From NCBI GenBank assembly GCA_028279645.1, contig JANQNJ010000027.1, forward strand, positions 1 to 46,176: 46,176 nt of DNA. Reading direction: 5' to 3'. This DNA comes from Thermoplasmatota archaeon. Its GTDB lineage: Archaea; Thermoplasmatota; JAKEGO01; JANQNJ01. Of the stretch, positions 18,615 through 45,554 are shown piece after piece (within the stretch, counting starts at the first letter, position 1; every line of letters starts with the position of its first letter). The translations under genes were made by a program, and so were the position numbers. Under the pieces are notes generated by a model. That model saw nothing but the letters and a program-made list of their open reading frames with translations. It was not told the origin of the DNA and ran no database searches.

Positions 18615-20654
18615 TCAGGTCAACAACGACCTGAGCTCCTCTAGGGTGTGCACCGGTGCGCTGCACGACGTGCCCTTGCAGAGGTATACCGTCGTCCTGT
18701 CGTCGACCATTTCCAGTTCTGCAAGATCGGGTGCTATCCGGAACAGAGGTTGTTCCTTCACTTCAGGGTCAAGATCGATGACCAACGTATCTGGCTGGTA
18801 GGCAGTCCTCAGATATCCGGCAATGGCCGCCTTGCCATCGTCATGGTCGCGGCCGACGATAACGATCTTCGTATGACCCCCATAGCCGTATATCAGAGCT
18901 GAAAGCAGGTGCGTCATGCCGGTTGGCGATCGATCGAGCTGGCGCGATACAGCCTTGATCGCGTTCCAGGCGGTCTCCGATAGGTCCGATCTGCCCGTGA
19001 TGGTCGAGAGCCGGAGAAGCTCGGACACGGCGACGGAATATCCCGAAGGCATCGCTCCATCGTAGGTCTCCCTGTCCCTGAACGGAAGCCGCTCCCCGTC
19101 CTCGCGGGTGAAGTAGAATCCGCCATAGTCCGGGTCCTCGAAGAGCTCGATGGTCCGTTCAGCAAGGTCCAACGCACTCGCGAGATGGCCGGGGTCCATT
19201 GTCGAGAGGTAGAGCTCGAGGAGGCCCCACATCATGAAGGCGTAATCGTCCAGGTTGCCGGGGATCGCAGCATCTCCATCCCTGTATCGATGGAGCAGCG
19301 TACCGTCCACGTCCATCGTGTCGGTGATGAACCTGGCCGCATTCGTAGCCGCTTCGACATATCGCTCGTTCTCGAGGACCCGTCCGGCCCGCGCGAGGGC
19401 GGCGATCATCAGGCCGTTCCAGTCGGTCAGGACCTTGTCGTCGAGGGATGGTCTGATCCTTTTCGAACGAACCGAGTCTAGATGGGTTCGGATGGCCTCC
19501 CATTCTGGTTCAGGATATCCTTCCATGCTGGTTCGATACAGCACGTTCGCACCCGTTCTCTCACCGGTCGCCTCCTCTAGGAAGTTCCCCGCCTCGGAGA
19601 GTACGAACGTTTCGCGAAGGAACCTCAGAGCGTCCACCTCGAGTACCTTGCTGAGCTCCTCTATGGTCCATACGTAGAACTTCCCCTCCTCCCCCTCGGA
19701 ATCTGCGTCCTCCGCCGAATGGAATCCACCCTTCGTCCCCGTCATATCGTTCAGTACATAATCTGCTATCTCTTCTGCTGTGGCCCGCAGGACATCGTTC
19801 CCTGTGGCCTGATACCCTTCGAGATAGGCCAACAGCATCCCGGCCTGGTCGTACAGCATCTTCTCGAAATGCGGTAGCTTCCACTCGCGATCGGTGGAGT
19901 ACCGATGGAATCCGTGACCGACGTGGTCGTACATACCTCCGGCGCGCATCGCCATGAGCGTGTCCTCCACCATGGAGCGGGCCTTCCCGATCCCCTTCTC
20001 CTTCCAGTATCCGAGCAGGAAGACGAGGTTGTGTGGCGAGGGGAATTTCGGGGCCCTTCCGAACCCACCGTTCTGGTCGTCGAAGTTATCCAGGAGCGTC
20101 GTGAACGCCTTGTCGAGCACCCGTTCGTCGGGTTCGCCATTGCCGCCCATGGTACCGACGTGGGCCGCGGCCTGTTCCACTATTCTATCTACAGATCCAA
20201 GCAGCCTGTCCCTCTGCGTTCTCCACAGCTCATCTATCGCAGGCAGCAGCCGGAGCATTCCGGGACTGCCGAACCGGTCCTCCTTCGGAATGTAGGTTGC
20301 CGCGAAGAACGGCCTCCTGTCAGGCGTCATGATGATCGTCAGCGGCCATCCGCCGGACCCCGTCATCATCTGACACACCTTCATGTAGACGCCGTCCACA
20401 TCGGGCCGCTCCTCCCTGTCGACCTTGATCGGAACGAACATCTCGTTGAGGAGACGGGCTACCGTTTCGTCCTCGAACGACTCCCTCTCCATCACATGGC
20501 ACCAGTGACACGTTGAGTAGCCGATGGAGAGGAAGATCGGCCGGTCCTCCTTCATGGCTCTGTCGAAAGCGTCCGCTCCCCAGGGATACCAATCCACGGG
20601 GTTGTGAGCATGCTGAAGGAGATACGGGCTCTTCTCATTGGCCAGTCTGTTCAT
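18615..20654 (-). CDS. YyaL/SSP411-family protein: thioredoxin-like DUF255 domain plus alpha/alpha-barrel domain
   Basis: The protein has 679 residues. The N-terminal 165 residues are the DUF255 thioredoxin fold, beginning [17 protein letters not shown], with the redox motif [10 protein letters not shown] (C49, C52). The rest is a six-hairpin-type alpha/alpha barrel related to N-acylglucosamine 2-epimerases and glycosidases, including [14 protein letters not shown]. The C-terminus holds another Cys pair (CKGTSCSAP). The biochemical function of the family is not established. The ATG at 20654 lies 18 bases after the methyltransferase stop, making this the last gene of an apparent five-gene thiol-rich operon. 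The length matches complete family members. Confidence 0.88.
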
Positions 20655-32049: not shown

Positions 32050-33233
32050 TACACTTGAACGATGGCCAGTATCCGGCGAAAGGTCGTTTCATCGGCAGAA
32101 CAACGAGTGTCCAGAACGCCCCGATCCAGCATCTGATGATGCATTGTAATGTTCCGAAGGATGCGATTTCGTTCGGTCAGGGCGTACCTTTCTTCGGACC
32201 TCCAAAGGAGGCGGTCGCTGCCGCTGCAACTGTTCTTTCAGAAGAGGTTGGTTATCGATATGGACTCGACATCGGGACCGTCGGTCTTCGCAATGTCATT
32301 GCAGGGAAGCTCAAGGTCTCAAACGGCATCGATGCCGATCCCGATGAGAACATCATCGTATGTGCTGGTGCGAATCAGGCGTTCTTCAACGTGATATCGG
32401 CGATCACGGATCCCGCCGACGGGATCGTTCTCCCGACACCTTACTACTTCAACCACGAGATGGCGGTTCGAATAGCGGGCTGTCGTCCGATCCTCGTTCC
32501 GACCGATGAGGACTATCAGCTCGACGTAGATGCGATGTTCGACGCTGTCGATGAAAGGACAAGGGCCGTCGTCACGGTCTCCCCGAACAATCCGACCGGT
32601 GCAGTGTTCCCATCGTGGGCACTGAACGAGGTCAACGAACGATGTGCCGATGCCGGGATCATCCACATCTCGGATGAGGCCTACGAACACTTCGCCTTCG
32701 GAATGGCGGACCATTACAGCCCGGGATCGTTCGATAAAACTACAGAGCACACGATATCATTGTTCTCCTTCTCGAAGTCGTTCGGAATGCCGGGATACAG
32801 GGTAGGATATTCGGTCCATCCGGAATGGATGCACAACGATGTGTTGAAGGTGCAGGATACGATCGGCCTGTGTGCGCCGATGCCGTCGCAGGCAGCCGCC
32901 GAAGCTGCGCTTCGGCTCTGTCCCGACTACCCGTCACGGTTCGTTCCGACCATCGAGGAGGTACGATCGCTTTTCATCAAAGTGTTGACCGAGAACGATA
33001 TACCCTTCCCGGTGACCGACGGCGGTTTCTATTTCCTGCTCAAGTTGCCGGACGACGTAGATGCATTAGCTGTCGCAAAGCGGCTGATCGAGGATCATGG
33101 GATCATCACGATCCCTGGTCGTCCTTTTGGGGCAACGTTCCCCGCGCTTCGGGTGTCGTATGGGAACATCGATCTTGAGGTGGCGGCCGAGGGGTTGGAA
33201 CGATTGGTGAATGGGCTCGAGGCAATACTGTAG
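32046..33233 (+). CDS. Class I/II PLP-dependent aminotransferase
   Basis: The 395-residue protein has fold-type I motifs: ISFGQGVPFFGPP, YGLDIGTVGLR, CAGANQAFFNV, VSPNNPTGAVF, ISDEAYEHFAF, the PLP lysine in SFSKSFGMPGYRVG, and LRVSYGN with the carboxylate arginine. It is only distantly similar to the enzyme at 13648-14775 (for example SFSKSFGMPG against SFSKTFALTG). The frame runs back to 31941 inside the upstream gene. GTG 32046 gives the normal family length and a four-base GTGA overlap, so I chose it; TTG 32055 is an alternative. Substrate not assigned. Confidence 0.85.
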   Translation: MIHLNDGQYPAKGRFIGRTTSVQNAPIQHLMMHCNVPKDAISFGQGVPFFGPPKEAVAAAATVLSEEVGYRYGLDIGTVGLRNVIAGKLKVSNGIDADPDENIIVCAGANQAFFNVISAITDPADGIVLPTPYYFNHEMAVRIAGCRPILVPTDEDYQLDVDAMFDAVDERTRAVVTVSPNNPTGAVFPSWALNEVNERCADAGIIHISDEAYEHFAFGMADHYSPGSFDKTTEHTISLFSFSKSFGMPGYRVGYSVHPEWMHNDVLKVQDTIGLCAPMPSQAAAEAALRLCPDYPSRFVPTIEEVRSLFIKVLTENDIPFPVTDGGFYFLLKLPDDVDALAVAKRLIEDHGIITIPGRPFGATFPALRVSYGNIDLEVAAEGLERLVNGLEAIL

Positions 33234-33255: not shown

Positions 33256-33324
33256 ACCCGCGCTTGGAAAATGCTTACACCCATGCTAATAATTGGCTTG
33301 GACCCACCCTCGCGTACCATCCGG
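33256..33324. repeat. Copy A of the dispersed 23-base-period element
   Basis: ACCC starts occur at 33256, 33279 and 33302, exactly 23 bases apart. Unit 1 begins ACCCGCGC, unit 2 ACCCATGC and ends GGCTTGG, and unit 3 begins ACCCACCC. CGACG precedes unit 1, as in copy B. The element lies just past the end of the SET-domain gene (stop at 33330). Confidence 0.75.
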
Positions 33325-33329
33325 TCGTC

Positions 33330-33839
33330 CTAAAGATCGGCGATCCTCATATTGACCAAAGGCGAGAAATGACCTCGATACCTCTCCTGCAGAACCGGGT
33401 CTCTCCAGTCCTTTCCTGTGACCACTCCTCTGCAAATGGACGAACCACAGTTGCATTCCCAAGGGCAAACGGAACCCTCATCCGCCTCGAACATCGCGAT
33501 ATCGATCATGACCTCCTCACCCTCAGCGATATACCTTCTCGCGACCACAGTGTAGGCGTCCAGCATCCATGCATTCGGGTCGCACGAGTGATTGATAGCA
33601 TATGCTTCCGGATAGACCTCGGTCTCCACCGAGAACACATCCTCGTCCCACTGCATCGTGCCTTTACCTTCCGCCATAGCCTGTTCAGCACCAGCTCTAT
33701 CTGTGTAGCTGTCTGCCCAAATGAGGACCACCTCGCCCTCTTTGAACGTAGCGGTAGCGAACATTCCGATGCCGTGGATCGGGCTCGGTCTGACCTCGAT
33801 CCTCGGATCGAGCCATGTCCTTTCGGGTCGGTCCATCAT
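33330..33839 (-). CDS. SET-domain protein (putative protein lysine methyltransferase)
   Basis: This 169-residue protein is a minimal SET domain. It opens with VRPSPIHGIGMFATATFKEGEVV, holds the catalytic pseudoknot sequence INHSCDPNAW (83-91) and GEEVMIDIAMFE, and ends with a post-SET-like Cys group (CPWECNCGSSICRG, C125, C129, C131, C136) that should bind zinc. SET proteins transfer methyl groups to lysine; in archaea known targets include DNA-binding proteins. Its ATG overlaps the stop of the upstream peptidase gene by four bases (ATGA), which couples it to that gene. The full domain is present, so activity is plausible. Confidence 0.88.
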   Translation of the reverse strand: MMDRPERTWLDPRIEVRPSPIHGIGMFATATFKEGEVVLIWADSYTDRAGAEQAMAEGKGTMQWDEDVFSVETEVYPEAYAINHSCDPNAWMLDAYTVVARRYIAEGEEVMIDIAMFEADEGSVCPWECNCGSSICRGVVTGKDWRDPVLQERYRGHFSPLVNMRIADL

Positions 33840-34909
33840 ACTCTCTGGACCTTCTGTCCGCTGCCGATGAAGATATCGTCCTCGATACGGATCCCTCCGA
33901 CCTCGGGCACGTAGATGCCGGGCTCGATGGTGAAGACGTTGCCGTCAACGAGCACATCCTTCTTCGGCGATGTGATGCGGACCCACGGGGCCTCATGGAC
34001 CTCGAGTCCGATGCCGTGTCCTGTGGAGTGGCAGAAGTATCTGTTGTAGCCGTACTCCTTGAACAGCTCCCGGATGCCGGCCTCGAGATCTCTGAGAGGT
34101 ACGCCGGCCTTGGCCTTCCTGATCGCCGTCTTCTGCGACTCCTCCACAACGTCGTAGATCTCCTGGACCTTCTTCGACACGGATGGCATGAGCAGGGTCC
34201 TGGTGATATCCGAGCAGTATCCCTGATAGTATGCACCGTAATCAACGACGACCGCGTCCCTCTTACCTATCTTGCGCTTGCCCACGTCGTGGTGCGGGAA
34301 CCATGAATGTGGCCCGGATGCGACGATGGTCGAGAACGCGATGGCCTCGGCGCCCAGGTCCCTGAGCTTGAAATCGAGTTCCTTCACCACATCCAGCTCG
34401 GTCTTTCCCGGTACGACGATATCGGGCAGGGCCTCCGCCGCCTTGAGCGCGATCCTGTTCGCCTTTCTAAGCCTCGAGATCTCCTCTGAGTCCTTGACCG
34501 CCCTCATATTGAGGATGTGTCCGCTCCTCGGGGTCTTGATCCCGTAGAACTTCGCCGGCGAATCGGTGAGAAGGGTCTTCACGTTGTTCTTCTTGAGGAT
34601 ACCCTTGATCACATCACCCATGGTCTTGCCGTCGGCGGGAATGCCGTCATAGGCTGCGAAGGTACGGACATCCTTTACGGCATTGTCGTACTTCGCCCTG
34701 TTCTCCTCCAGGGCCGATGCGACGCCTATGGGCTGTCCCTTGGGCGGAACGAAAATGTACATGAGCACGGACGACGACGGGAACGCCTCCGCCACGTGGG
34801 AACAGGACAGGTACCTGATGTTCGCATAGTTGGAGACCAGGAAGCCGTCGGCCTCCTGTCGTGCGATCTCCTTCTGGATATCCTTCCATCTCTTCTTGTA
34901 ATCGGTCAT
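33836..34909 (-). CDS. M24-family metallopeptidase (Xaa-Pro aminopeptidase/dipeptidase)
   Basis: The 357-residue protein has a creatinase-like N-terminal domain and a pita-bread catalytic domain. Metal ligands are visible in VVVDYGAYYQGYCSDITRT (two Asp), FCHSTGHGIGLEVHE (His), FTIEPGIYVP (Glu) and GIRIEDD (Glu). It should remove N-terminal residues before proline or cleave X-Pro dipeptides, using two metal ions. The open frame begins at 34933, but GAGGTGA lies within those codons as a Shine-Dalgarno sequence for ATG 34909 (MTDYKKRWK), which I chose. A TATA-like AATATATAC is at 34985-34993. The last bases overlap the SET-domain gene. Confidence 0.9.
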   Translation of the reverse strand: MTDYKKRWKDIQKEIARQEADGFLVSNYANIRYLSCSHVAEAFPSSSVLMYIFVPPKGQPIGVASALEENRAKYDNAVKDVRTFAAYDGIPADGKTMGDVIKGILKKNNVKTLLTDSPAKFYGIKTPRSGHILNMRAVKDSEEISRLRKANRIALKAAEALPDIVVPGKTELDVVKELDFKLRDLGAEAIAFSTIVASGPHSWFPHHDVGKRKIGKRDAVVVDYGAYYQGYCSDITRTLLMPSVSKKVQEIYDVVEESQKTAIRKAKAGVPLRDLEAGIRELFKEYGYNRYFCHSTGHGIGLEVHEAPWVRITSPKKDVLVDGNVFTIEPGIYVPEVGGIRIEDDIFIGSGQKVQRV

Positions 34910-35115
34910 ATGAACGTCACCTCGAAGATACATAGCCTTCGATAGCCTATGCTCCGCATCGGCCTTCGAACGTAACGTATAGGTTGTATATATTCTTTAT
35001 TTGGATCGACCTCGTTAAAAACACCGTGAACCGAAGGTCCCCTGGCACCTATTGGAACCATAGAATATTGTCATTAACACAGGTAGAATATTCTTTATCG
35101 AGGATGTGTGAGCGC

Positions 35116-38031
35116 CTAGGATACGACCTCTTCCACCGGTATCGGTTCGTCGTCGTCGACCTCTTCCCGCTCCTCTCCCCTGCCGTACGTGAACTCGTCG
35201 TAGAGCTTTCCACGGATCAGATAGATATAGATCGATGGCAGGAGGAACATCGCCGACATCATACAGACCACTAGAAGGATCTGAATGAGGCCGATGAACT
35301 TCCAGATGCTGGCGATCGGTATGAAGTAACCTGCTGTCAGACCCGCAAGGGTCACGGTGGTCGCCTCCATGAACGACCTACCGGTGGTCTCGATGGCGGT
35401 CTTCACACCCTCCACGGTCTCACCGCGCTTGCCGCCCTCCTCACGGACCCTTTCGGTCATATGAATGGAAAAATCAACACCCGCACCCACCACTATGGAA
35501 CCTAACATGGCTGTGATGATCGTGAGGGCGGCGTTCACTGATTTGAATGTAAGCGGCAGCATGGCTACAGCACATGCCAGCGGAATGATAGTAAGCACCG
35601 AATATCTCACCGACCTGAAGATGATGAGAAGCACGATCAGTACGAATAGCAGTGCGAGGATCAACGACTGCATGGCGTTGAGGAAGATCAGATCGTTGAC
35701 CGTCAGACCGATCGCAGCCACACCAGTGAGTACGGATGTGCTCTGACCTGCCTTCCACTTCTCCACCTGTTCATTGACGCCTTCAACCGACGACCGCGAG
35801 CTCTCGACATCTCTCACAGGCATGTCGACGTAGATGAGCATCTTCGAGTAGTCGTCGTTCAGAAGCATATGCTTGAGCTCGTCAGTGAGCGAGTCGTATG
35901 TGACCTCTATCCAGAAGAGTCGGGTGTTGTAAGGCTGCTGGTTCTCTGGCGAATCCTCTATGGTGTCCCATAGGCTCTGGTTCTCGTATGTGTCGAAATT
36001 GACCAGACCCAGAGATTCCGATGTGTTGATAATGAAGGCCGCACTTCCATCGTCATCGATGGCGTCTATTGCCCTGTCGGCCCGGATGGTCTTGAAGATG
36101 TCGATGATCGACACAGGCCAGGTCGCTTCAACTTCGCCGATCTTCTCTTCAAGGTATTCGGCTTCCTTCAGGACATCATAGTCCTTCATACTGCCTTCGT
36201 AATCGTCACCTTGAGCGGCTCTGCCGCGGATTATCACCATACCCGTGGCTCCGCCTTCGAATATTCGGGCGTAATCTTTGAACGTGACAAGGGATTCCTG
36301 GTCATCTGGGGCGAAGTCGAGGAAGTCAACATTGCTCTCGATCGCACCCCCCATCAGGAGGCCCGAGGAGATGATTATCAGCACAACAGTAGCACCAAGG
36401 ATCTTCCGGTTATGGTCGGCCGGGACAGGCGAGACCTTCTTGAACATCTTCGCCATTGAATCCTCGCGTTTGTGATAGTCGAGGAGCAGCACGAGGCTCG
36501 GCACCATGATGACCGCGATAACGTAGTTGATCATGATCCCCATGGTAAGGGTCAGGCCCACGGTCCTCATCGGCATAATGTTGGTCACCATCAACGATGC
36601 GAAGCCGCCGGCGGTCGTGACCGCTGAAAGGAACACGGCCTTACCGGTCGTTCTTACGGCAACCTTGGCCCTCTCGACCCTATCTTCGATCTGGGCCTCT
36701 TCAGCATAACGATTGGCTATGTATAGACCGTAGGCTACGCCTAGCGCGATGATTATCGGTCCAACGACGATAACCTGCGGTGTTATGGGCAGACCAACTA
36801 TAGAGATTATCGAGAATGTGATGGCGATCGACACCGCTACGGGTATCAATGCGATGAACAGGATCTTCAACGTCCTGTGGAAGAAGAAGAGTGTGAGCAG
36901 GACGAAGATCACAGCGATGACAAGAGCCCGGATACCCTCCTCGGTCGACCGGTCCTGGACATCCTTTGTCACAGGTATCGTGCCTGTGTCGCGGAACACG
37001 AGCTTATGACCCGCTGCGTCCACATCAGGATCCTTGTTGTATTTCCTGACCATTTTGGTATAGGTCCCTCGGACCCGCTCGACGATGTCGTCGAAGTTGA
37101 GGCCGCTGCGGAGGCCTAGCAGGACAAGGGTGCTGTCCCAGATCCCATCCTTGTTGGTGTCCTTGACGAAATGGTCGATGATGTTCGGTTCGACCTGTTT
37201 GATGTAATCATCGACCCTTTCCTGGCTATTGGGGATGCTGTCATTTCCGGAGACGTTTCCTACGACGAGGTCCTCTCCAGGTATCTCCACACCAGATGCC
37301 TTCTCAGCCTGTTTCCAAAGTGCGGCAGCAACCCGAGGTGCGCTCCCGTTGAACTCCCGAATTATCTTGGCGATGGAGAAGACGTAGATCACATCGTCCT
37401 CCTTCCCCTTGTCGTTCTGGGCATAGTTCAGCGCGAACTCGATCTTCGAGATCTGCTGAAGGATCGAAGAGTTAGTAACATTGGAGTTCTCTTTATACAG
37501 GTCCTTATCGAACGCATTCTGCGTCTCAACATAAAGCACGAAAAGATCAACGGTCCAATTGGCCCGGACCTCGTTGAGAATATCCGACGTTTCTTCACCT
37601 TCAGGCAAATACACATCAAAAGCTGCGTCCATGTTGAGATTTAAATAGCCGAGCATGTTCGGCGGGCTCTCGTTATCGTTGACCTTGGCGTCGATGGCGG
37701 TCCAATTAACCAAAGGAAATACAAGTACCGCGGTAATAAGAAGTGTAATGATCACGGTCATCTTCGGCTTCTCGACCATCTTGTCGAAGAACGTGTAGAA
37801 CGAGTCCTTTGATATCGATGAGTCGATATAGCGCGCGCTGACATCGTCGATACTGTCCTTGATGTCCGAAGCCTTCTCCCTGGCCGATGCGCCGTACCGG
37901 TCTGCGGCCCGAGATGACTTATCGACCTTCTCGCCTACCTTCGTCAAGCGGCGGTCGATGCTCATATCGAGCTTGTCCTTCACGGACTTGAAACGGCTCG
38001 TTAACCGGTCCACGGACTTCTTATCGGCCAT
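35116..38031 (-). CDS. RND/MMPL-family transporter with two sterol-sensing-type membrane halves
   Basis: The protein has 971 residues with about 12 membrane helices in the 1+5, 1+5 pattern of RND proteins: TM1 near 92-112, a large outer domain to about 365, TM2-6, TM7 in ILGATVVLIIISSG, a second outer domain, then TM8-12 with SIVVGAGVDFSIHMTERVREEGG. The motif GVAYGLYIANRYAEEAQ is typical of TM4. This resembles archaeal and HpnN/MmpL-type exporters of lipids or hydrophobic compounds, driven by ion flux. An unusual basic, helical N-terminal extension of about 85 residues precedes TM1. A TATA box lies at 38064-38073. The 182-base gap to the peptidase gene holds only AT-rich promoter-like stretches. 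Confidence 0.88.
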   Translation of the reverse strand: MADKKSVDRLTSRFKSVKDKLDMSIDRRLTKVGEKVDKSSRAADRYGASAREKASDIKDSIDDVSARYIDSSISKDSFYTFFDKMVEKPKMTVIITLLITAVLVFPLVNWTAIDAKVNDNESPPNMLGYLNLNMDAAFDVYLPEGEETSDILNEVRANWTVDLFVLYVETQNAFDKDLYKENSNVTNSSILQQISKIEFALNYAQNDKGKEDDVIYVFSIAKIIREFNGSAPRVAAALWKQAEKASGVEIPGEDLVVGNVSGNDSIPNSQERVDDYIKQVEPNIIDHFVKDTNKDGIWDSTLVLLGLRSGLNFDDIVERVRGTYTKMVRKYNKDPDVDAAGHKLVFRDTGTIPVTKDVQDRSTEEGIRALVIAVIFVLLTLFFFHRTLKILFIALIPVAVSIAITFSIISIVGLPITPQVIVVGPIIIALGVAYGLYIANRYAEEAQIEDRVERAKVAVRTTGKAVFLSAVTTAGGFASLMVTNIMPMRTVGLTLTMGIMINYVIAVIMVPSLVLLLDYHKREDSMAKMFKKVSPVPADHNRKILGATVVLIIISSGLLMGGAIESNVDFLDFAPDDQESLVTFKDYARIFEGGATGMVIIRGRAAQGDDYEGSMKDYDVLKEAEYLEEKIGEVEATWPVSIIDIFKTIRADRAIDAIDDDGSAAFIINTSESLGLVNFDTYENQSLWDTIEDSPENQQPYNTRLFWIEVTYDSLTDELKHMLLNDDYSKMLIYVDMPVRDVESSRSSVEGVNEQVEKWKAGQSTSVLTGVAAIGLTVNDLIFLNAMQSLILALLFVLIVLLIIFRSVRYSVLTIIPLACAVAMLPLTFKSVNAALTIITAMLGSIVVGAGVDFSIHMTERVREEGGKRGETVEGVKTAIETTGRSFMEATTVTLAGLTAGYFIPIASIWKFIGLIQILLVVCMMSAMFLLPSIYIYLIRGKLYDEFTYGRGEEREEVDDDEPIPVEEVVS

Positions 38032-38063
38032 TGGGATTACCCGCGCTACTGTATAGGAAGAGG

Positions 38064-38073
38064 CTTTATATGG
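38064..38073 (-). promoter_or_regulatory. TATA box of the RND transporter gene
   Basis: CCATATAAAG on the minus strand is centred about 37 bases before ATG 38031, predicting a leader of about 10 bases. Confidence 0.5.
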
Positions 38074-38106
38074 CTTTGCCCCGCTGGGCCCGTTCTGGGA
38101 ACGAGC

Positions 38107-38277
38107 CTAGGCGTGGTGTTCTACCATGTTCTTCGTTGCGTACCAAAGCGGATTCTCAACCTGCTCGTAGCTTTCGCATATCCCAGAGATCTTACCGCCG
38201 CACATCGCCTCAAGATACGACTTGCAGGCGGTGCACCGCTGTTTCGTCTCGGTTGAGCGAAAATCTATTCCGACCAT
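38107..38277 (-). CDS. 56-residue Cys-rich small protein
   Basis: This short gene encodes MVGIDFRSTETKQRCTACKS and continues YLEAMCGGKISGIC to a C-terminal EHHA. The four cysteines (C15, C18, C26, C34) could bind one zinc or an iron-sulfur cluster. The start is well supported: TAGGTG lies at the end of the TrmB gene, six bases before ATG 38277, and the gene starts nine bases after the TrmB stop, so the two form an operon. The next gene, the RND transporter, has its own promoter. I do not recognise the family. A small metal-binding partner of the regulator is one possibility. Confidence 0.72.
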   Translation of the reverse strand: MVGIDFRSTETKQRCTACKSYLEAMCGGKISGICESYEQVENPLWYATKNMVEHHA

Positions 38278-38285
38278 GTTTTCAC

Positions 38286-39002
38286 CTATCCGACTTCTGC
38301 GAACTTCTCACCATATAGGGTGTCGAAAACGAGGCTGTTCAGGCTTACCAGGGCCTTGTTCCCGGTCCAGATACCCACGAGGTCCGTGGGGCTGTCGGAG
38401 GCCGAGGAGATGTCAACCGCTCCGATGTATAGCTCGGAGTCATCCACTATCAACATCCCGGCTGTGGGAACCTCCTTTATCTGGGCTTCAAGCCTCTCTG
38501 CTATGCTGGCGAGGTCGTTGTTCTCGGTCATCGGGAAGATCGATCTGACATCGATCCCGAGGTCCTTCTTCTCGAGAAGGGTCCCGGCGATCCGTCCGAG
38601 GACGCTGGTTGGGACCAGCGTTGCGATGATCTTCACTTCGCGTTCCGCGCCGTTGATCATCCCCTCGATCTTCCTGAACGCCTCGTATCCTCTGAACACA
38701 GCAATATCCGAGAGCCTAATGCCGATATCCTTATAAACCGGCTTGAGAGCCTCCACGGCAGTGCTGTAGGCCTTTGCCACAGCCTCCCGCTTCTCGTCGA
38801 GAACGGTCTCTGGGTCAAGCGGTATGAAGGTCTTGGGGTTCTCCGTCAGCACCTTCACCCAGCCCTTTGACACCAGCCTGTCGAACAGGTTGTAGACCTT
38901 GGTCCTCGAATAGCCGAGAAGCGTACTTAGCTCGCCTACTGTGGCCATCCCTCTGGATACCAGAAGTTGGTAGATACCTGCTTCATCGCGATCGAGGCCC
39001 AT
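38286..39002 (-). CDS. TrmB-family transcriptional regulator
   Basis: From ATG 39002 the protein has 238 residues: a winged-helix DNA-binding domain (YQLLVSRGMATVGELSTLLGYSRTKVYNLFDRLVSKGWV), a coiled linker, and an effector-like C-terminal domain. TrmB proteins control sugar uptake and central metabolism in archaea. The frame stays open 12 codons further upstream as I-S-E-E-E-V-I-R-A-L-E-D, which is the usual start of the TrmB fold. No ATG, GTG or TTG is there, only ATA at 39036-39038 preceded by AGAGGGA. The true start may therefore be a rare ATA. The small Cys protein follows nine bases downstream. Confidence 0.85.
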   Translation of the reverse strand: MGLDRDEAGIYQLLVSRGMATVGELSTLLGYSRTKVYNLFDRLVSKGWVKVLTENPKTFIPLDPETVLDEKREAVAKAYSTAVEALKPVYKDIGIRLSDIAVFRGYEAFRKIEGMINGAEREVKIIATLVPTSVLGRIAGTLLEKKDLGIDVRSIFPMTENNDLASIAERLEAQIKEVPTAGMLIVDDSELYIGAVDISSASDSPTDLVGIWTGNKALVSLNSLVFDTLYGEKFAEVG

Positions 39003-39108
39003 GTCCTCGAGCGCCCTGATAACTTCTTCTTCTGATATGCTATCATCCCTCTTATGGTGGAAGATTTCTCATCCCTGTCTGGGTGTGTTAAAGGTTCTAC
39101 GAGTCGTC

Positions 39109-39120
39109 AAGTATATATAT
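39109..39120 (-). promoter_or_regulatory. TATA box of the TrmB gene
   Basis: An ATATATATA-type tract lies here, about 110 bases before ATG 39002 on the minus strand. This leaves room for a leader of 45-85 bases depending on the start used. Confidence 0.45.
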
Positions 39121-39241
39121 GTTTCCGAAAAAAAAACGAACCTAGCCTAAAATCACGGCGATCGCAGTATTTTTCCAGTGGAAATGGACCTCGGTTCATC
39201 GTATTTTATCGATCCTTCCTTCTCTTGATCGGTTTCTCTTT

Positions 39242-39259
39242 GATAATTAATTAATTATC
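39242..39259. promoter_or_regulatory. 18-bp perfect palindrome GATAATTAATTAATTATC
   Basis: This exact palindrome lies in the intergenic region between TrmB and the HTH regulator. It could be a TATA element for the structured RNA starting near 39270, an operator, or both. Confidence 0.5.
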
Positions 39260-39268
39260 TAGGAGATA

Positions 39269-39338
39269 ACTCGGTGGTACTAAAGCCGAAGGAGATGGTC
39301 CCCTCTCGGGGGCCGCAAAGCTCCCGAACGAGCCGAGG
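39269..39338 (+). ncRNA. Candidate structured RNA (nested hairpin)
   Basis: Three nested stems can form: CTCGG (39270-39274) with CCGAG (39333-39337); GGAG (39291-39294) with CTCC (39321-39324); and GGTCCCC (39297-39303) with GGGGGCC (39308-39314) around a TCTC loop. The AT-rich palindrome at 39242-39259 is placed as its promoter. T-rich DNA follows at 39366-39382. The HTH gene has its own TATA further down, so this is unlikely to be only a leader. Family unknown. Confidence 0.4.
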
Positions 39339-39376
39339 GTACTTACGTATACCAGAAGTTACAAATATTCTTCTTA

Positions 39377-39387
39377 CTATTATAAGG
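39377..39387 (+). promoter_or_regulatory. TATA box of the HTH-10 regulator gene
   Basis: CTATTATAAGG lies 35-45 bases before ATG 39422, predicting a leader of about 15 bases that holds the AGAGGA Shine-Dalgarno sequence. Confidence 0.5.
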
Positions 39388-39421
39388 CAGATCGTGAGAG
39401 GGGATACCAAGAGGAATACCG

Positions 39422-40057
39422 ATGATGGAAGCGGTAATAGGTCTGAAGTCCAGCAACGACTGGGTCACGGCAGTAACTACAAAACATCCCATCAGCGTGC
39501 GCGTTCTGGACTGCAACGCTCAGGCGGAGGATGTCATGAGAGACCTAGTGGAGATCTCGCTCAACAGGACCCCGCTGGACGATGTCGTCTCCACCATCAA
39601 GGAGCACTCCTGCGTGCAGAACGTGGAAGTGGATCCCATCGACAAGGACCGAGCAATGGCCATCGTCACGGTAAAGGGCTGCATGGGCTGCATTCTGCTC
39701 GACAAGACCGACTGTTTCCTCGTAAGCTCCTACGCCAGGGAGGGTGGAGAGCTGGAGTGGAAGCTGATCTTCAGCGAGAAGAAGAACCTCCAGTCGCTGA
39801 TCTGGAACCTCAAGGACGGCGGGGTCGACGTGAGATTGAAGAAGATCACGTCCCTCAACGAGAAGGAGGCCCTGACCGAACGACAGGAACGCATAATCCA
39901 GCAGGCCCTCGCCCTGGGCTATTACGACTTCCCAAAGAAGATCGGCATCCGGGAGCTGGCCGAGAAGTTCGACGTCTCCACAGCCACGATCTCGGAGACC
40001 CTCCGCAGGGGCCAGAAGAAGATCCTCTCGGACTATTTCGAGGAAGGTCGGCGATAG
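39422..40057 (+). CDS. Bacterio-opsin-activator-type HTH regulator (HTH_10)
   Basis: The 211-residue regulator ends in the HTH_10 domain: LTERQERIIQQALALGYYDFPKKIGIRELAEKF followed by STATISETLRRGQKKIL (about 155-205). The N-terminal 150 residues are a sensor-like domain with C41, C64, a CMGCILLDKTDC cluster and no known ligand motif. The Cys spacing could bind a metal or respond to redox state. Such regulators are common in halophiles and Thermoplasmatota. ATG 39422 (or 39425) has AGAGGA about seven bases upstream. It is divergent from TrmB across a region rich in palindromes. Confidence 0.85.
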   Translation: MMEAVIGLKSSNDWVTAVTTKHPISVRVLDCNAQAEDVMRDLVEISLNRTPLDDVVSTIKEHSCVQNVEVDPIDKDRAMAIVTVKGCMGCILLDKTDCFLVSSYAREGGELEWKLIFSEKKNLQSLIWNLKDGGVDVRLKKITSLNEKEALTERQERIIQQALALGYYDFPKKIGIRELAEKFDVSTATISETLRRGQKKILSDYFEEGRR

Positions 40058-40228
40058 GCCGCAGACCACATTTCTGAACCGCGCCCAGCCATGGCTCCGA
40101 TACGATCTTGCATCCCTATATCGATGTTTACAATCGTAGCACCATTCCAGCCCTGGCCACAAACTTGGGGCTCTATTGAATATGTTAGGGAAATCGATAA
40201 GATACGGAACTGTGAATGGAGTATCTGA

Positions 40229-40525
40229 ATGCCTACGGACGACGACATCCTGAACGCACTTCGCAACTGCGTGGACCCCGAGGTGGGCCTCAGTATAGTC
40301 GATATGGGGTTCGTCCAGGGGATCGAGCTGAACGGCGGAACCGTCCACGTGAAGCTCATAACCGGCAACACCTCCTGTCCGTTCCATCCCTTTATAGTCC
40401 AGAGGGCCTACGACCACATAAGCAAGGTGGACGGGGTCGAGAAGGTCGTCGTCGAGGTGCTACAGGACGTCCAGTGGTCTCCAAGCATGCTCACCGATCG
40501 CGGCCGTGAGTTCTTCGGACTGTGA
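40229..40525 (+). CDS. MIP18/DUF59-family iron-sulfur assembly protein
   Basis: The 98-residue protein has the full DUF59 layout: LRNCVDPEVGLSIVDMGFVQGI, VHVKLITGNTSCPFHPFI and VEVLQDVQWSPSML. DUF59 proteins (SufT, PaaD, MIP18) help deliver or mature Fe-S clusters; the cysteine in SCPFHPF is the conserved reactive one. No suf genes are nearby in the window. The 171-base gap upstream (40058-40228) holds AT-rich promoter-like sequence and no gene. Confidence 0.88.
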   Translation: MPTDDDILNALRNCVDPEVGLSIVDMGFVQGIELNGGTVHVKLITGNTSCPFHPFIVQRAYDHISKVDGVEKVVVEVLQDVQWSPSMLTDRGREFFGL

Positions 40526-40561
40526 TACCTGTCCATTTCGACCTTATCTCAATTTATCGTC

Positions 40562-40587
40562 CCAGAACTCCATCTTTCCCGTTCTGG
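40562..40587 (+). terminator. Hairpin after the DUF59 gene
   Basis: CCAGAAC (40562-40568) pairs with GTTCTGG (40581-40587), a seven-base stem with a 12-base loop, 37 bases after the stop. No T tract follows, so termination is uncertain. Confidence 0.35.
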
Positions 40588-40611
40588 AAGATATTCTCAC
40601 CAATTCGAAAC

Positions 40612-40619
40612 GTATATAT
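40612..40619 (+). promoter_or_regulatory. TATA box of rpl15e
   Basis: GTATATAT predicts a start near 40643 and a leader of about 95 bases before ATG 40738. Confidence 0.6.
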
Positions 40620-40627
40620 TGTAGAAG

Positions 40628-40713
40628 GGAATCTCCAGTATTCCCGCGAGATTCCATACCCACGGGCATAGGACCCGTGAATGGAAGACGGAGATGTGTC
40701 CCCGGGACCGGGG
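40628..40713 (+). promoter_or_regulatory. Structured promoter and leader of rpl15e
   Basis: GGAATCTC (40628-40635) is complementary to GAGATTCC (40648-40655), spanning the likely start site. TTCCAT (40652-40657) pairs with ATGGAA (40681-40686) around an inner stem CACGGG (40661-40666) / CCCGTG (40674-40679). A further hairpin is CCCCGG (40700-40705) / CCGGGG (40708-40713), shortly before the Shine-Dalgarno sequence. Such folding could allow autoregulation by a ribosomal protein. Confidence 0.5.
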
Positions 40714-40737
40714 ATGAATCCGGAGAGGGTGATCGCT

Positions 40738-41328
40738 ATGACGAAAAGCGCATACAAGTACATGAGCGAGGCCTGGAAGCGTCCGAAGGACAAGGCCACC
40801 AAGGAGCTCTACAGACAGAGGCTCATCCAGTGGAGGAGGGAGCCCGTTGTTCTCAGGATAGACAGACCCACCAGGCTCGACAGGGCCAGGGCGCTCGGAT
40901 ACCGGGCGAAGCAGGGTTATATCGTTTCACGTACCCGTGTCAGACGCGGCGGCCTCAGGAAGAGGACCATCAAGGGAGGCCGTAAGCCGAAGAGGAAGGG
41001 TATCAAGAAGATCACAATGGCCAAATCGATCCAGAGGATCGCCGAGGAGAGGGTCGCCCGCAGGTATGCCAACCTCGAGGTGCTCAACTCCTACTGGGTG
41101 GGCGAGGACGGACGACACAAGTTCTACGAGATCATACTCGTGGACCCTTCGCATCCCGCCATCAAGGCCGATCCGAAGATCAACTGGATCTGCGAGGCGC
41201 AGCACACACGGCGCGCCAACCGCGGTCTGACCTCTGCAGGCAGCAAGGGTCGCGGCCTTCGCAACAAAGGCCGCGGCGCGGAGAAGCTGAGACCGTCATT
41301 AGCCGCACACGACAGGAAAGGGAAATAA
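40738..41328 (+). CDS. rpl15e: 50S ribosomal protein L15e
   Basis: The 196-residue protein starts [18 protein letters not shown], the standard L15e N-terminus, and includes [38 protein letters not shown] and a very basic C-terminus with [14 protein letters not shown]. It is a large-subunit protein of archaea and eukaryotes. The frame runs open from 40681, but GAGAGGGTGA lies just before ATG 40738 with a normal gap, and this start gives the family length. Its leader is predicted to be strongly structured. No other ribosomal protein gene adjoins it. Confidence 0.96.
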
Positions 41329-41386
41329 GCGTTAAATACCGGAGGGCAGTAGCCTCCGTCATACACCCTGAAAGAGGTGAACCTAG

Positions 41387-42295
41387 ATGGGCAGAGAGAT
41401 CGACCTGACGAAGATGAGGAAGGGAACCGAGCTGCTGAAGCGCGGCTTCGCAAAGATGCAGAAGGGCGGCGTCGTGATGGACGTCACAGATGCCAAGCAG
41501 GCGCTCATCGCCGAGGAGGCTGGAGCCGTCGCCGTGATGGCGCTCGAGCGTGTCCCGGCGGATATCAGGGCCCAGGGCGGCGTAGCCCGGATGTCGGACC
41601 CGGTCAAGATCATCGAGATCAAGGAGGCCGTGACCATCCCGGTGATGGCCAAGGCCAGGATCGGCCACTTCGTGGAGGCTCAGGTCCTCGAGGTACTCGG
41701 CGTCGACATGGTCGACGAGTCCGAGGTCCTTACACCTGCCGATCCTTTCTACCACATCGACAAGTCCAACTTCACCATCCCGTTCGTATGCGGTGCCAGG
41801 AGCCTGGGAGAGGCGCTTCGCCGTATCGACGAGGGTGCAGCAATGGTCAGGACCAAGGGCGAGGCCGGCACAGGCAACGTCATCGAGGCGGTCCGTCATC
41901 AGCATTCGATCATCGGCGCGATCCGCGGCCTCCAGGGCAAGACCGACCAGGAGCTGTTCGAGGTGGCTAGGAAGATCGAGGCCCCATTCGACCTCGTGAA
42001 GGAGGTCTCCGTGCTCCAGAGGCTTCCGGTGGTCAACTTCGCCGCAGGCGGACTTGCGACCCCGGCCGACGCCGCCATGATGATGCAGATGGGAAGCGAC
42101 GGCGTCTTCGTCGGCTCCGGCATCTTCAAGTCCTCGGATCCCGAACCGCGTGCCAGGGCCATCGTCGAGGCGGTCACCCATTTCGACGAGCCCGATGTCA
42201 TAGCTGAGGTTTCAAAGGGGCTGGGCGATCCGATGCGCGGAATGGACATGTCCGAGATACCCGAGGACCAGCAGCTTGCTACTCGCGGCTGGTGA
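41387..42295 (+). CDS. pdxS: Pyridoxal 5'-phosphate synthase, PdxS subunit
   Basis: This 302-residue TIM-barrel enzyme makes PLP from ribose 5-phosphate, glyceraldehyde 3-phosphate and ammonia. Signature segments are [36 protein letters not shown] (with the imine-forming lysine), [13 protein letters not shown] and [14 protein letters not shown], followed by [13 protein letters not shown]. The glutaminase partner PdxT is not in this window. ATG 41387 has GAGGTGA seven bases upstream. The short gap before it holds TTAAATA-type sequence and a GGAGG/CCTCC hairpin. The two PLP-dependent aminotransferases in the window are potential users of its product. Confidence 0.96.
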
Positions 42296-42351
42296 CGTCC
42301 CGCGATAGCGCGACGCATCGACCACTGCCGGTCTTATTCGACGTTGATATA

Positions 42352-42360
42352 CGTTTTAAG
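42352..42360 (+). promoter_or_regulatory. TATA box of the acyl-CoA synthetase gene
   Basis: CGTTTTAAG predicts a start near 42383, downstream of GTG 42376, so it favours ATG 42409 as start codon. Confidence 0.45.
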
Positions 42361-42408
42361 CAAAACCATTAAGTAGTGTATCTCAGAGTGGCCCACCAAG
42401 GGCATCGA

Positions 42409-44097
42409 ATGCTCAGATATCATTTCGATGCCTACTACCAACGCATGGTGACCGATATGAACGAGGATTGCGGACCCGAGGAGTACCAGGACTACGAGAC
42501 CATGGTACGTGAGTTCGAATGGACCGTGCCGGAGCACTTCAACTTCGGCTTCGACGTCGTCGACAAGTGGGCAGAGGACCGGACCAAGATGGCCCTAGTC
42601 TCCATCGACAGCATCGGTGAGAAGACCAGTTACCAGACATTCTACGAGCTGTCGGTGCTTTCGAACCAGTTCGCCAACGTCCTTCGGAACCTGGGCGTCC
42701 AGAAGGGCGACAGGGTCCTCGTTATGCTCGAGAGCATCCCGCAGTGGTACGTCGTGATGATCGGTATGTTCAAGCTCGGCGTCGTCCCGATGCCAGGGAC
42801 CGTATTGCTGACGGCCAAGGACGTCGAGTACAGGATCAACAGGGCCGAGGCCTGTATGGTAGTGACCGACGTCAACCACATCGGCCGCGTCGAGCGGATC
42901 GCCGAGAAGTGTCCGACCCTCCAGCACAAGATGGTCGTTGACGGCAAGGTCCACGAGTGGCTCAGCTTCGACGAGGAGATGGACAAGGTGCCCCATGTCC
43001 TCGACCGGGACGAGATCGAGACCACCAGTGCCGACGATCCGATGCTGCTCTATTTCACTAGTGGGACGACAGGCCAGCCCAAGATGGTGCTCCACACCCA
43101 CAGCTACGGCAAGGGGCACGAGGTCACTGCCAGATTCGCTCAGGCCCTCAGGTCGAGCGACCTCCACTGGGCCATCTCCGAGACCGGCTGGGCGAAGGCC
43201 GCCTGGGGAAAGCTGTTCGGCCAGATGATCGTCGGTGCGGCCATCATCCAGTGGGAGACGCCGGGCCGGTTTGACGCCGATGGACTGTTGAAGGCCATGG
43301 AGCGGTACGGTGTGACGACCTTCTGCGCTCCTCCGACGGTCTACAGGATGCTCATACAGCAGTACCTTCCTCAATATCGACTCTCGCTCAGACACTGCAT
43401 GTCCGCCGGTGAGCCCTTGAATCCGGAGGTGATCAAGGTATGGAAGGACGCCTTCGGCCTGGACATCTACGATTTCTATGGACAGACAGAGACCGTCTGC
43501 GTGTTGTCCAACTACCCGTTCATGCCTATCAAGTACGGTTCCGTGGGAAAGCCCACACCCGGCCACGACGTGCGCATCGTCGATGATGATGGGAAGGAGC
43601 TCCCTGTTGATGAGGAGGGCAACATCGCCATCTACCTCGGCGAAAGAAGGCCGCCCGGTCTGATGCAGGAGTACTGGAAGGACGAGGAGGCGATGTCCAA
43701 GGCATTCCGCGGTGATTACTATTTCACCGGGGACAGAGCTTACAAGGACTCCGACGGCTACTTCTGGTTCGTCGGACGCGACGACGACGTGATCAAGTCC
43801 TCCGGATACAGGATCGGTCCGTTCGAGGTCGAGTCGACATTGCTGGAACATCCCTCGGTCGTTGAGTGCGCCGTCGTCGGCGTCGAGGACCCAGGCGGTG
43901 TGAGGGGAATCGTTGTGAAGGCCCATGTGGTCCTGGCCAAGGGCTTCGAGGGGAGTGCAGAACTGACCAAGGAGCTCCAGGAGTACGTCAAGACGAACAC
44001 CGCTCCGTACAAATATCCGAGGATCATCGAATACGCCGATGAGCTGCCGAAGACGATATCCGGCAAGATATTGAGAAGGGAGCTCAGGAAGAAGTAG
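42409..44097 (+). CDS. Acyl-CoA synthetase, AMP-binding (medium-chain type)
   Basis: The 562-residue ANL-superfamily enzyme has YFTSGTTGQPKM (ATP loop), WAISETGWAKAAWG, a DFYGQTETVCV motif, TGDRAYKDSDGYFWFVGRDDDVIKSSGYRIGP, and the catalytic lysine in PKTISGKILRREL. The arrangement fits medium-chain or short-chain acyl-CoA synthetases, which make acyl-CoA from a carboxylic acid, ATP and CoA through an acyl-adenylate. Exact chain length is not predictable. The frame opens at GTG 42376, but the TATA position and AAGGG before ATG 42409 favour the shorter form. The 113-base gap after pdxS includes a CGCG-ATAG-CGCG hairpin. Confidence 0.9.
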   Translation: MLRYHFDAYYQRMVTDMNEDCGPEEYQDYETMVREFEWTVPEHFNFGFDVVDKWAEDRTKMALVSIDSIGEKTSYQTFYELSVLSNQFANVLRNLGVQKGDRVLVMLESIPQWYVVMIGMFKLGVVPMPGTVLLTAKDVEYRINRAEACMVVTDVNHIGRVERIAEKCPTLQHKMVVDGKVHEWLSFDEEMDKVPHVLDRDEIETTSADDPMLLYFTSGTTGQPKMVLHTHSYGKGHEVTARFAQALRSSDLHWAISETGWAKAAWGKLFGQMIVGAAIIQWETPGRFDADGLLKAMERYGVTTFCAPPTVYRMLIQQYLPQYRLSLRHCMSAGEPLNPEVIKVWKDAFGLDIYDFYGQTETVCVLSNYPFMPIKYGSVGKPTPGHDVRIVDDDGKELPVDEEGNIAIYLGERRPPGLMQEYWKDEEAMSKAFRGDYYFTGDRAYKDSDGYFWFVGRDDDVIKSSGYRIGPFEVESTLLEHPSVVECAVVGVEDPGGVRGIVVKAHVVLAKGFEGSAELTKELQEYVKTNTAPYKYPRIIEYADELPKTISGKILRRELRKK

Positions 44098-44133
44098 TGC
44101 GCTGATGATCGCTGTCTGTGATGTTCACGCACA

Positions 44134-45138
44134 TCACAGGATAACCGAGATCTCGCTACCACAATTGCTGCAAATGTTCCAATCGGACCCGGTCGCTCTC
44201 GCCGAGAACCCCGATCTGGAGATCACGGTATTGTTGCATTTAGGGCAATACGTGTCCTCCTTACCAGGGATCCGTATGTTACCAAGAAAGACGTGGGCCA
44301 GACCGTTCTCTTTCGCGATGTCATAGGCCATTTCGAGGGTGGCGGCGGGGGTTGGCGGCAGGTCGGACATCTTGTAGTCGCCGTGGAACCTGGAGAAGTG
44401 GACCGGGACCTCCGGACCAAGCTCGTCATGGACCCATTTGGTGAACTTGTCGAGCTCCTCGCGGCTGTCGTTCCCGCCGGGAACGATCAGCGTCGTCAGT
44501 TCGATATGGATGCCAAGCTCGACGGCCCTCCTGCACGTCTTCTTGACCGGCTCGAGATGTGATCCGCAGAGATCTGAATAGAATCCGTCGTCGAACGACT
44601 TCACGTCGATGTTCATCGCGTCGAGGTATGGTGCGATGGTTTCGAGGGCTTCGGCAGTCATGTAGCCGTTGGTCACGTAGCAGGTGTAAAGACCCTCCTT
44701 CTTTGCCAGCTTCGACGCCTCGTACGTGAACTCGAACCAGATGGTCGGCTCGTTGTAGGTCCACGCGATCCCCGCCGCCCCCTGCCGAAGCGAGACGGCG
44801 ACGGCGTCCTCAGGTGTCATCGACGGTCCCTTCACCATGTCTATATCCCTCTGGGATATGTCCCAGTTCTGACAGAAGCCGCACCTGAAGTTGCAGCCGA
44901 CCGTGCCGAAGCTCATGACATCCGTGCCTGGGTGGAAATGATAGAGCGGCTTCTTCTCGATAGGATCGAGATGGACGGCTATCGCCTTTCCGTAGACGAG
45001 CGAGTACAGGGTGCCGTCCTGGTTCTCCCGGACGCCGCAGATACCGCGTTTTCCATCGACGATCTTGCAACGATGTGAGCAGAGGCTGCATTCGACGACG
45101 TCGTTCCCGGCGGGGTCCCAGAGCATGGCCTCCTTCAT
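44134..45138 (-). CDS. amrS: AmmeMemoRadiSam-type radical SAM enzyme
   Basis: This 334-residue protein has an N-terminal Cys group (C17, C20, C24, C34), the radical SAM triad CNFRCGFC (C82, C86, C89), AWTYNEPTIWFEF, NGYMTAEAL and VHFSRFHGDYKM. It ends in a zinc ribbon (CPKC and CSNC). This matches the PflA-like protein of the AmmeMemoRadiSam set, which usually occurs with AMMECR1 and Memo proteins; neither lies in the window. The substrate is unknown. The TATA box CCTAATAAGC is centred 27 bases before ATG 45138, so the mRNA is probably leaderless. It is convergent with the acyl-CoA synthetase gene. Confidence 0.88.
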   Translation of the reverse strand: MKEAMLWDPAGNDVVECSLCSHRCKIVDGKRGICGVRENQDGTLYSLVYGKAIAVHLDPIEKKPLYHFHPGTDVMSFGTVGCNFRCGFCQNWDISQRDIDMVKGPSMTPEDAVAVSLRQGAAGIAWTYNEPTIWFEFTYEASKLAKKEGLYTCYVTNGYMTAEALETIAPYLDAMNIDVKSFDDGFYSDLCGSHLEPVKKTCRRAVELGIHIELTTLIVPGGNDSREELDKFTKWVHDELGPEVPVHFSRFHGDYKMSDLPPTPAATLEMAYDIAKENGLAHVFLGNIRIPGKEDTYCPKCNNTVISRSGFSARATGSDWNICSNCGSEISVIL

Positions 45139-45160
45139 TCGGGGCTCTATCGGTGTGTTG

Positions 45161-45170
45161 GCTTATTAGG
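45161..45170 (-). promoter_or_regulatory. TATA box of the AmmeMemoRadiSam gene
   Basis: CCTAATAAGC on the minus strand is centred 27 bases before ATG 45138. Copy C of the 23-base-period element begins less than 20 bases further upstream, where a regulator would bind. Confidence 0.55.
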
Positions 45171-45188
45171 CTAACTGCGGACGACGAC

Positions 45189-45251
45189 GCCCACGCCGGG
45201 AATTTACTGGGACCCATGCCTGGATATAGCTTGGACCCGCCCTGCGTCGCC
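45189..45251. repeat. Copy C of the dispersed 23-base-period element
   Basis: Unit starts are at 45189 (GCCCACGCC), 45212 (ACCCATGCC, ending AGCTTGG) and 45235 (ACCCGCCC), each exactly 23 bases apart. ACGAC precedes unit 1. Unit 2 closely matches unit 2 of copy A and unit 3 of copy B. Confidence 0.75.
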
Positions 45252-45288
45252 AGTGCGTGAGCTTCCTGTGGTAGGCCCTCTCTGACAG

Positions 45289-45399
45289 CCCCCCGCTTTG
45301 CCATGGATTGGGCCTAATGGACCTAGGTTTTTATCGAAACCATTGGTTGGTGTTCGACCATCACGATCCTGGCCCAATCCATGGTCTAGCGTTGGGGGG
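45289..45399. repeat. 111-bp inverted-repeat element
   Basis: The left arm has CCCCCC (45289-45294) and CCATGGATTGGGCC (45301-45314); the right arm has GGCCCAATCCATGG (45371-45384) and GGGGGG (45394-45399). Inside are two small hairpins: GGTTT/AAACC (45326-45341) and TGGT/ACCA (45348-45360). It has no ORF. It could be a MITE-like element or a structured RNA gene. Confidence 0.65.
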
Positions 45400-45443
45400 T
45401 CGGTCCGGAAGGGTATTCATCAGAATGCCTATCACGAACGACG

Positions 45444-45535
45444 ACCCGCGCCGAGAAGATGCTTAGACCCATGCTTGAAAAACAATTGAACCCATGCCGA
45501 GATATCGCTAGCACCCTCACTAACAAGAAAGTAAT
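45444..45535. repeat. Copy B of the dispersed 23-base-period element
   Basis: ACCC starts are at 45444, 45467, 45490 and 45513, exactly 23 bases apart. Units begin ACCCGCGCC, ACCCATGCT, ACCCATGCC and ACCCTCAC. A degenerate earlier unit with ATGCC in phase may start at 45421. It ends about 20 bases past the hypC stop. The gap 45139-45554 has no gene and holds copies C and B and the inverted-repeat element. Confidence 0.78.
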
Positions 45536-45554
45536 GAGACGGGTCCGGGAAGCT

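Follow-up and report, generated by a model that had tools for sequence, protein, structure and literature searches.

The occurrence of tandem units whose starts are 23 bases apart at three intergenic positions of an archaeal contig raises the question of what such a repeat might be, an array of protein sites on one DNA face, a mobile element and a structured RNA having all been proposed in an initial annotation. The window, by which we refer to the whole stretch of 46,176 nucleotides that was analysed, is contig C78 of a draft genome of 2,239,190 bases (2.24 Mb), which is distributed over 179 contigs and 82% complete. The named relatives of a protein encoded in the window originate mostly from Thermoplasmatota MAGs with identities of at most 57%, which defines the source as an uncultured member of this phylum without close relatives among the genomes compared, the nearest being two of the same order and of another family. 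Genes were called by our own selection of open reading frames based on codon usage and not by a published gene finder.

The repeat in the window and in its genome

All three copies are found on the + strand, with three unit starts each at 33256 and 45189 and four at 45444. No other site in the window contains at least three CCC at a 23-base period, and a tandem match at 19485, which resides inside an ORF, is unrelated to the element. The features are as follows:

33256 to 33309, + strand: copy 1, a 54-bp element with units at 33256 and 33279 and a third start at 33302 (E 7.2e-14 in its own genome), flanked by convergent genes whose ends are at 33233 (+) and 33330 (−)
45189 to 45242, + strand: copy 2, a 54-bp element with units at 45189 and 45212 and a third start at 45235 (E 3.9e-15), located 50 bp upstream of the start of a minus-strand AmmeMemoRadiSam-type radical SAM gene
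45275 to 45318, + strand: left arm of a second dispersed element, a foldback located between copies 2 and 3 (z-scores of folding −4.7 and −5.8)
45369 to 45419, + strand: right arm of the same foldback element
45444 to 45520, + strand: copy 3, composed of three full 23-bp units (45444, 45467, 45490) and a fourth unit start at 45513; 34 bp separate its end from the 3' end of a minus-strand gene

Copies 2 and 3, initially counted as separate, flank this second repeat in the gap that separates two minus-strand genes (45139-45554) and are thus parts of a single composite and not independent of each other. The minus-strand gene ending 20 bp from copy 1 (33330-33839) encodes a SET-domain protein (Pfam PF00856, E 4.7e-10).

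For the search of its own genome, which the initial annotation had named as the check that could refute the element, we used the exact pattern ACCCATGC-N15-RCCC with its reversed version as control and a sequence-only 54-bp model, with which 150 candidates were scored and counted at E<0.01. The pattern matches 73 times and the reversed control not once, while the model detects at least 140 matches with E-values to 3e-16, and further copies are therefore present well beyond chance. At a threshold of E<1e-3, the extracted genome stretches hold about 76 well-supported arrays with one (34 arrays), two (23), three (11), four (6), five (1) or six (1) matches, which are extended either by a further 23-bp unit or by the addition of entire elements joined via linkers of mostly 6-9 or 25-27 bases. 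Dispersed, intergenic and modular with a variable copy number of its module, the repeat has these properties in common with MITE- and BOX-type families.

The same annotation had also proposed a search of relatives, which yielded no convincing copy among 116 other Thermoplasmatota genomes searched by pattern and the subset of them that was also searched by model. A lone weak match in one relative (G028, E 2.9e-4) was taken as chance, as it covers 33 of 54 columns and stands by itself. The exact consensus is absent from a genome contig collection and a degenerate pattern from viral contigs, both being narrow tests, and we found no description of such a repeat in the literature searched. As far as the compared genomes show, the family thus appears to be lineage-specific.

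Spacing and base-specific constraint

The alignment of the 73 extracted copies defines a 54-bp core with sharp edges, extending from 23 bases before ACCCATGC to 30 after, of which 57 non-redundant copies align without a gap. Its consensus GCCCACGCYKGGAAAAYGCTTGSACCCATGCTNGNATNCAGCTTGGACCCGCCC comprises two full 23-bp units and the 8-bp start of a third, so that the proposed tandem organization applies to the first two units, with the third normally confined to its first 8 bases (ACCCGCCC). The profile is similar to itself at a shift of 23 (0.74) and reaches at most 0.17 at other shifts up to 31, with this minor peak at a shift of 11. Latter reflects half-units of 12 and 11 bases within each 23-bp unit, both containing a GC (columns 7, 18, 30, 41) followed by a near-invariant A (columns 13, 24, 36, 47), whereas a CCC box is found only once per 23 bp. 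The ACGACG upstream of unit 1, noted before as CGACG or ACGAC, is a real but weak flank, which in part of the copies has a counterpart on the other side and which also makes up much of the linkers. Terminal inverted repeats are absent from the 54-mer consensus.

Within arrays, the distance from CCC to CCC equals 23 in 181 cases and 22 in 12, and is never 24 or 25. The period is thus not kept every time, as had initially been described, but the postulated selection on spacing is supported by its strong constraint. As the units are directly adjacent, the spacers that characterize a CRISPR array are missing, and a period of 23 in arrays that are intergenic, except for a 17-bp overlap with the edge of a gene in one of the 76, does not conform to a coding tandem repeat. 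Both assignments had been rejected at the outset with good reason.

The constraint is also manifested in individual columns, whose information ranges from 0.0 to 1.8 bits and whose match to the consensus spans 28% to 98%, whereas an abandoned repeat would be expected to decay evenly over its columns. This heterogeneity is pronounced (chi-square 1279 on 53 df) and persists after removal of the columns used as search seed (785 on 41 df). A similar picture emerges from 14 pairs of local duplicates, the most similar ones within arrays, which differ at 0.220 positions per column where information, measured on other arrays, is low and at 0.043 where it is high, with a rank correlation between information and differences of −0.74. 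The approximately fivefold reduction at high-information columns suggests that sequence and phase are under constraint. A contribution of gene conversion or detection bias to this pattern is conceivable, although they should not generate it alone, and the correlation is still found without the seed columns (−0.71).

Fixed spacing in combination with site-specific base constraint is what would be expected of a phased protein-binding array, and the proposal of a protein array on DNA has gained in plausibility to this extent. We thus tentatively favour, with a probability that we place slightly below even, a phased array of DNA binding sites for a single lineage-specific protein that would have spread as module of a mosaic repeat. 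The protomers of this putative protein would be bound next to one another on the array, which would require the unit spacing to stay at 23 (rarely 22), whereas array length would be free to vary by addition of 23-bp units or whole 54-bp elements. Counting against this reading, 23 bp does not correspond to an integral number of turns of B-DNA. It amounts to about 2.2 turns, by which successive units would be rotated by roughly 70 degrees, and the single DNA face of the initial proposal holds only in approximation.

Mosaic structure and dispersal

The foldback element between copies 2 and 3 consists of CCCTTCCTGAACGGCCCCCCACGCT ... CCAAGGATTGGGGCC and their inverse and folds strongly. A model of its left arm (R2) identifies 24 loci in the genome, 18 of which have a 23-bp element nearby, a number that includes 13 training copies chosen for this property, whereas the 11 non-training loci divide into 5 with and 6 without, and the foldback element thus also occurs alone. 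About 14 loci combine both elements. Where measurable, their register is fixed, with 62-63 bp between the end of the 23-bp element and the left foldback stem (3 loci) and 109-110 bp between the right stem and the start of the next 23-bp element (5 loci), and it is mostly kept wherever both elements and a recognizable stem are found, the window composite being slightly shorter. Among the foldback loci (window 45275-45419; L038, L039, L040, L056, L092, L096 and L199-L204), the outer arms are conserved and the inner loops variable, with some containing extra nested hairpins. In addition, hairpin modules (GGGAGAAGCCG..CGGCTTCTCC and AGAGAAACCGCGGTTTCTCT-like) occupy the boundary between the first two units of the 23-bp element:

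L044, 2016 to 2270: junction hairpin module
L054, 1349 to 1463: junction hairpin module
L112, 2037 to 2150: junction hairpin module
L204: junction hairpin module

The fixed register and the junction modules together describe the family as a mosaic resembling BOX elements. In our preferred reading, the phased array and the foldback element would be modules of one mosaic repeat, as part of which the array would have spread through intergenic DNA. Dispersal and mosaic structure favour mobility in the past, so that the initial suggestion of a mobile element is plausible, although neither clear target duplications around the 54-mer copies nor, in searches for Y1 and DDE_Tnp_1 transposases, a cognate enzyme were found.

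The same features would also be expected of a purely selfish, non-autonomous repeat (a MITE or BOX-like mosaic), whose 23-bp units would be subterminal sites for a transposase acting in trans without gain for the host, an explanation that we consider somewhat unlikely. It would account for dispersal to about 76 intergenic places, for the modular joining to the foldback element in fixed register and for the hairpins at the unit junction (L044, L054, L112). It would equally agree with the distribution of the element over 37 tandem, 18 convergent and 13 divergent gaps, compared to 102, 21 and 23 without it, which amounts to a modest convergent excess (18 of 68 versus 21 of 146, p 0.038) as reported for BOX, RUP and IS of Streptococcus pneumoniae (PMC3049150). 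Conversely, the lack of terminal inverted repeats and of clear target duplications argues against it, as does the identity between copies at different loci (mean 64%, best 93%), which indicates that there was no recent burst, and the uneven decay that spares high-information columns after local duplication. Moreover, the genome contains a single IS200-type Y1 transposase with neither repeat beside it, and no match to DDE_Tnp_1. Within 1.3 kb downstream of this Y1 match (L205, 2041-3351), a further repeated motif (ACTCAGGCGGCGAGCGGAT and AGCGAGCCGCCCCGGCGGGAAC) is present twice.

Position relative to genes and comparison with known systems

The loci are 83% coding, and the 17-bp overlap mentioned above is the only one exceeding 10 bp. 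Many arrays are located 8-60 bp from the 3' ends of genes, which would suit an element acting at the RNA level, where arrays in 3' untranslated regions or small RNAs would present repeated GCYUGSA/CCC motifs to an RNA-binding protein. Some arrays, such as L057, L061 and L045, are moreover preceded by a TATA-like AT peak at a distance of 20-30 bp from their start, which points in the same direction. We nevertheless regard this possibility as distinctly unlikely. The 54-mer consensus shows no fold by z-score, 69 copies contain no complementary covariation including long-range pairs, and no Rfam family matches the element, so that the initially suggested structured RNA is not supported for the 23-bp units. 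The conserved structure and compensatory changes defining a structured non-coding RNA are thus not seen in the 54-mer, whereas the separate foldback element does fold. An i-motif or G-quadruplex is similarly unlikely as, judged by eye, four C3 tracts are accompanied by two 20-base loops. The element resides in tandem, convergent and divergent gaps, 13 of the latter, which excludes a single transcript position as explanation, and its orientation relative to flanking genes is mixed, being antisense in 26 and sense in 13 cases with respect to tandem genes (p 0.053, not significant). A promoter for each array was considered on the basis of the AT content at −30 to −20 (0.60 versus about 0.48) but rejected, since TATA-like sequence is equally common across the four array flanks (14, 13, 13 and 15 of 76) and several arrays begin 16-30 bp past a stop codon.

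Operators or upstream activating sites of a large regulon, to which several arrays between divergent gene starts beside TATA-like sequence (such as L055) might be assigned, are very improbable, since about a quarter of the array gaps are convergent with no promoter of a flanking gene nearby and copies in front of genes show no fixed distance to the start codon. Finally, chance or low-complexity C-rich sequence, conceivable for single units that are short and degenerate, is refuted by the 73 to 0 result of the control search, the low E-values and the near absence in relatives, and retains virtually no probability.

Taken together, a protein array on DNA is favoured by three observations: spacing is strict while internal columns are free to vary, RNA structure is lacking, and the element occurs in gaps of every type. 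We infer a protein as ligand, DNA rather than RNA as its target and a dispersal resembling that of mobile elements. In a more specific version, which we judge to be unlikely, the arrays, about 76 or more, would bind an undescribed archaeal chromosome-organizing protein acting in the nucleoid, in segregation or at domain boundaries, and the host would tolerate or favour their spread. Dispersed repeats of prokaryotes are in many cases palindromic and interpreted as debris of mobile elements or as structures in RNA. The repeat described here is direct and non-palindromic, retains, at about 76 sites, an exact 23-bp phase together with a base-specific constraint and was seen in one lineage only, which makes the search for a putative bound protein straightforward. 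Its finding would tell whether an archaeal chromosome is organized or marked by a repeat family or whether an unusual phased recognition array is part of a mobile element.

Among known systems, the BOX of Streptococcus pneumoniae is a modular dispersed intergenic repeat with its boxB module in variable tandem copy number, which is equipped with terminal inverted repeats and target duplications (PMC3049150). The present family shares the modular, dispersed and intergenic organization, the variable tandem number of one module and the convergent-gap excess. It differs in the unfolded 54-mer with its 23-bp internal phase, which lacks inverted ends and target duplications in the data seen, and in the flanking foldback module, which is a separate element also found alone. 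With MITEs and Correia-type elements it has in common a small, non-coding, intergenic and lineage-specific sequence of high copy number, and the foldback element resembles one of them, whereas the 23-bp array has no inverted ends, is not AT-rich and has no parent IS that we could find. The element is thus best read as one that may work like BOX or MITE-type repeats but without inverted ends.

Iterons and subterminal arrays of transposase sites, such as the 22-bp TnsB sites at the ends of Tn7, are built from direct, phased units of roughly two turns. The 23-bp units are comparable in all these respects and in their organization as short arrays, with protein binding being putative in the present case, although they occur on their own at about 76 sites of the chromosome and no gene of a replicon or transposon was seen attached to them. 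Archaeal ORB and mini-ORB sites are short, contain G-runs and occur in repeated arrays. The same holds for the 23-bp units, which are set apart by a number of loci that is far too large for origins. A tandem related unit of a different period, GGCCCACGCCGGTACATCATAAGCTGTTATCAGCAACC, is found upstream of the 23-bp element on the − strand of L095 (1950-2160).
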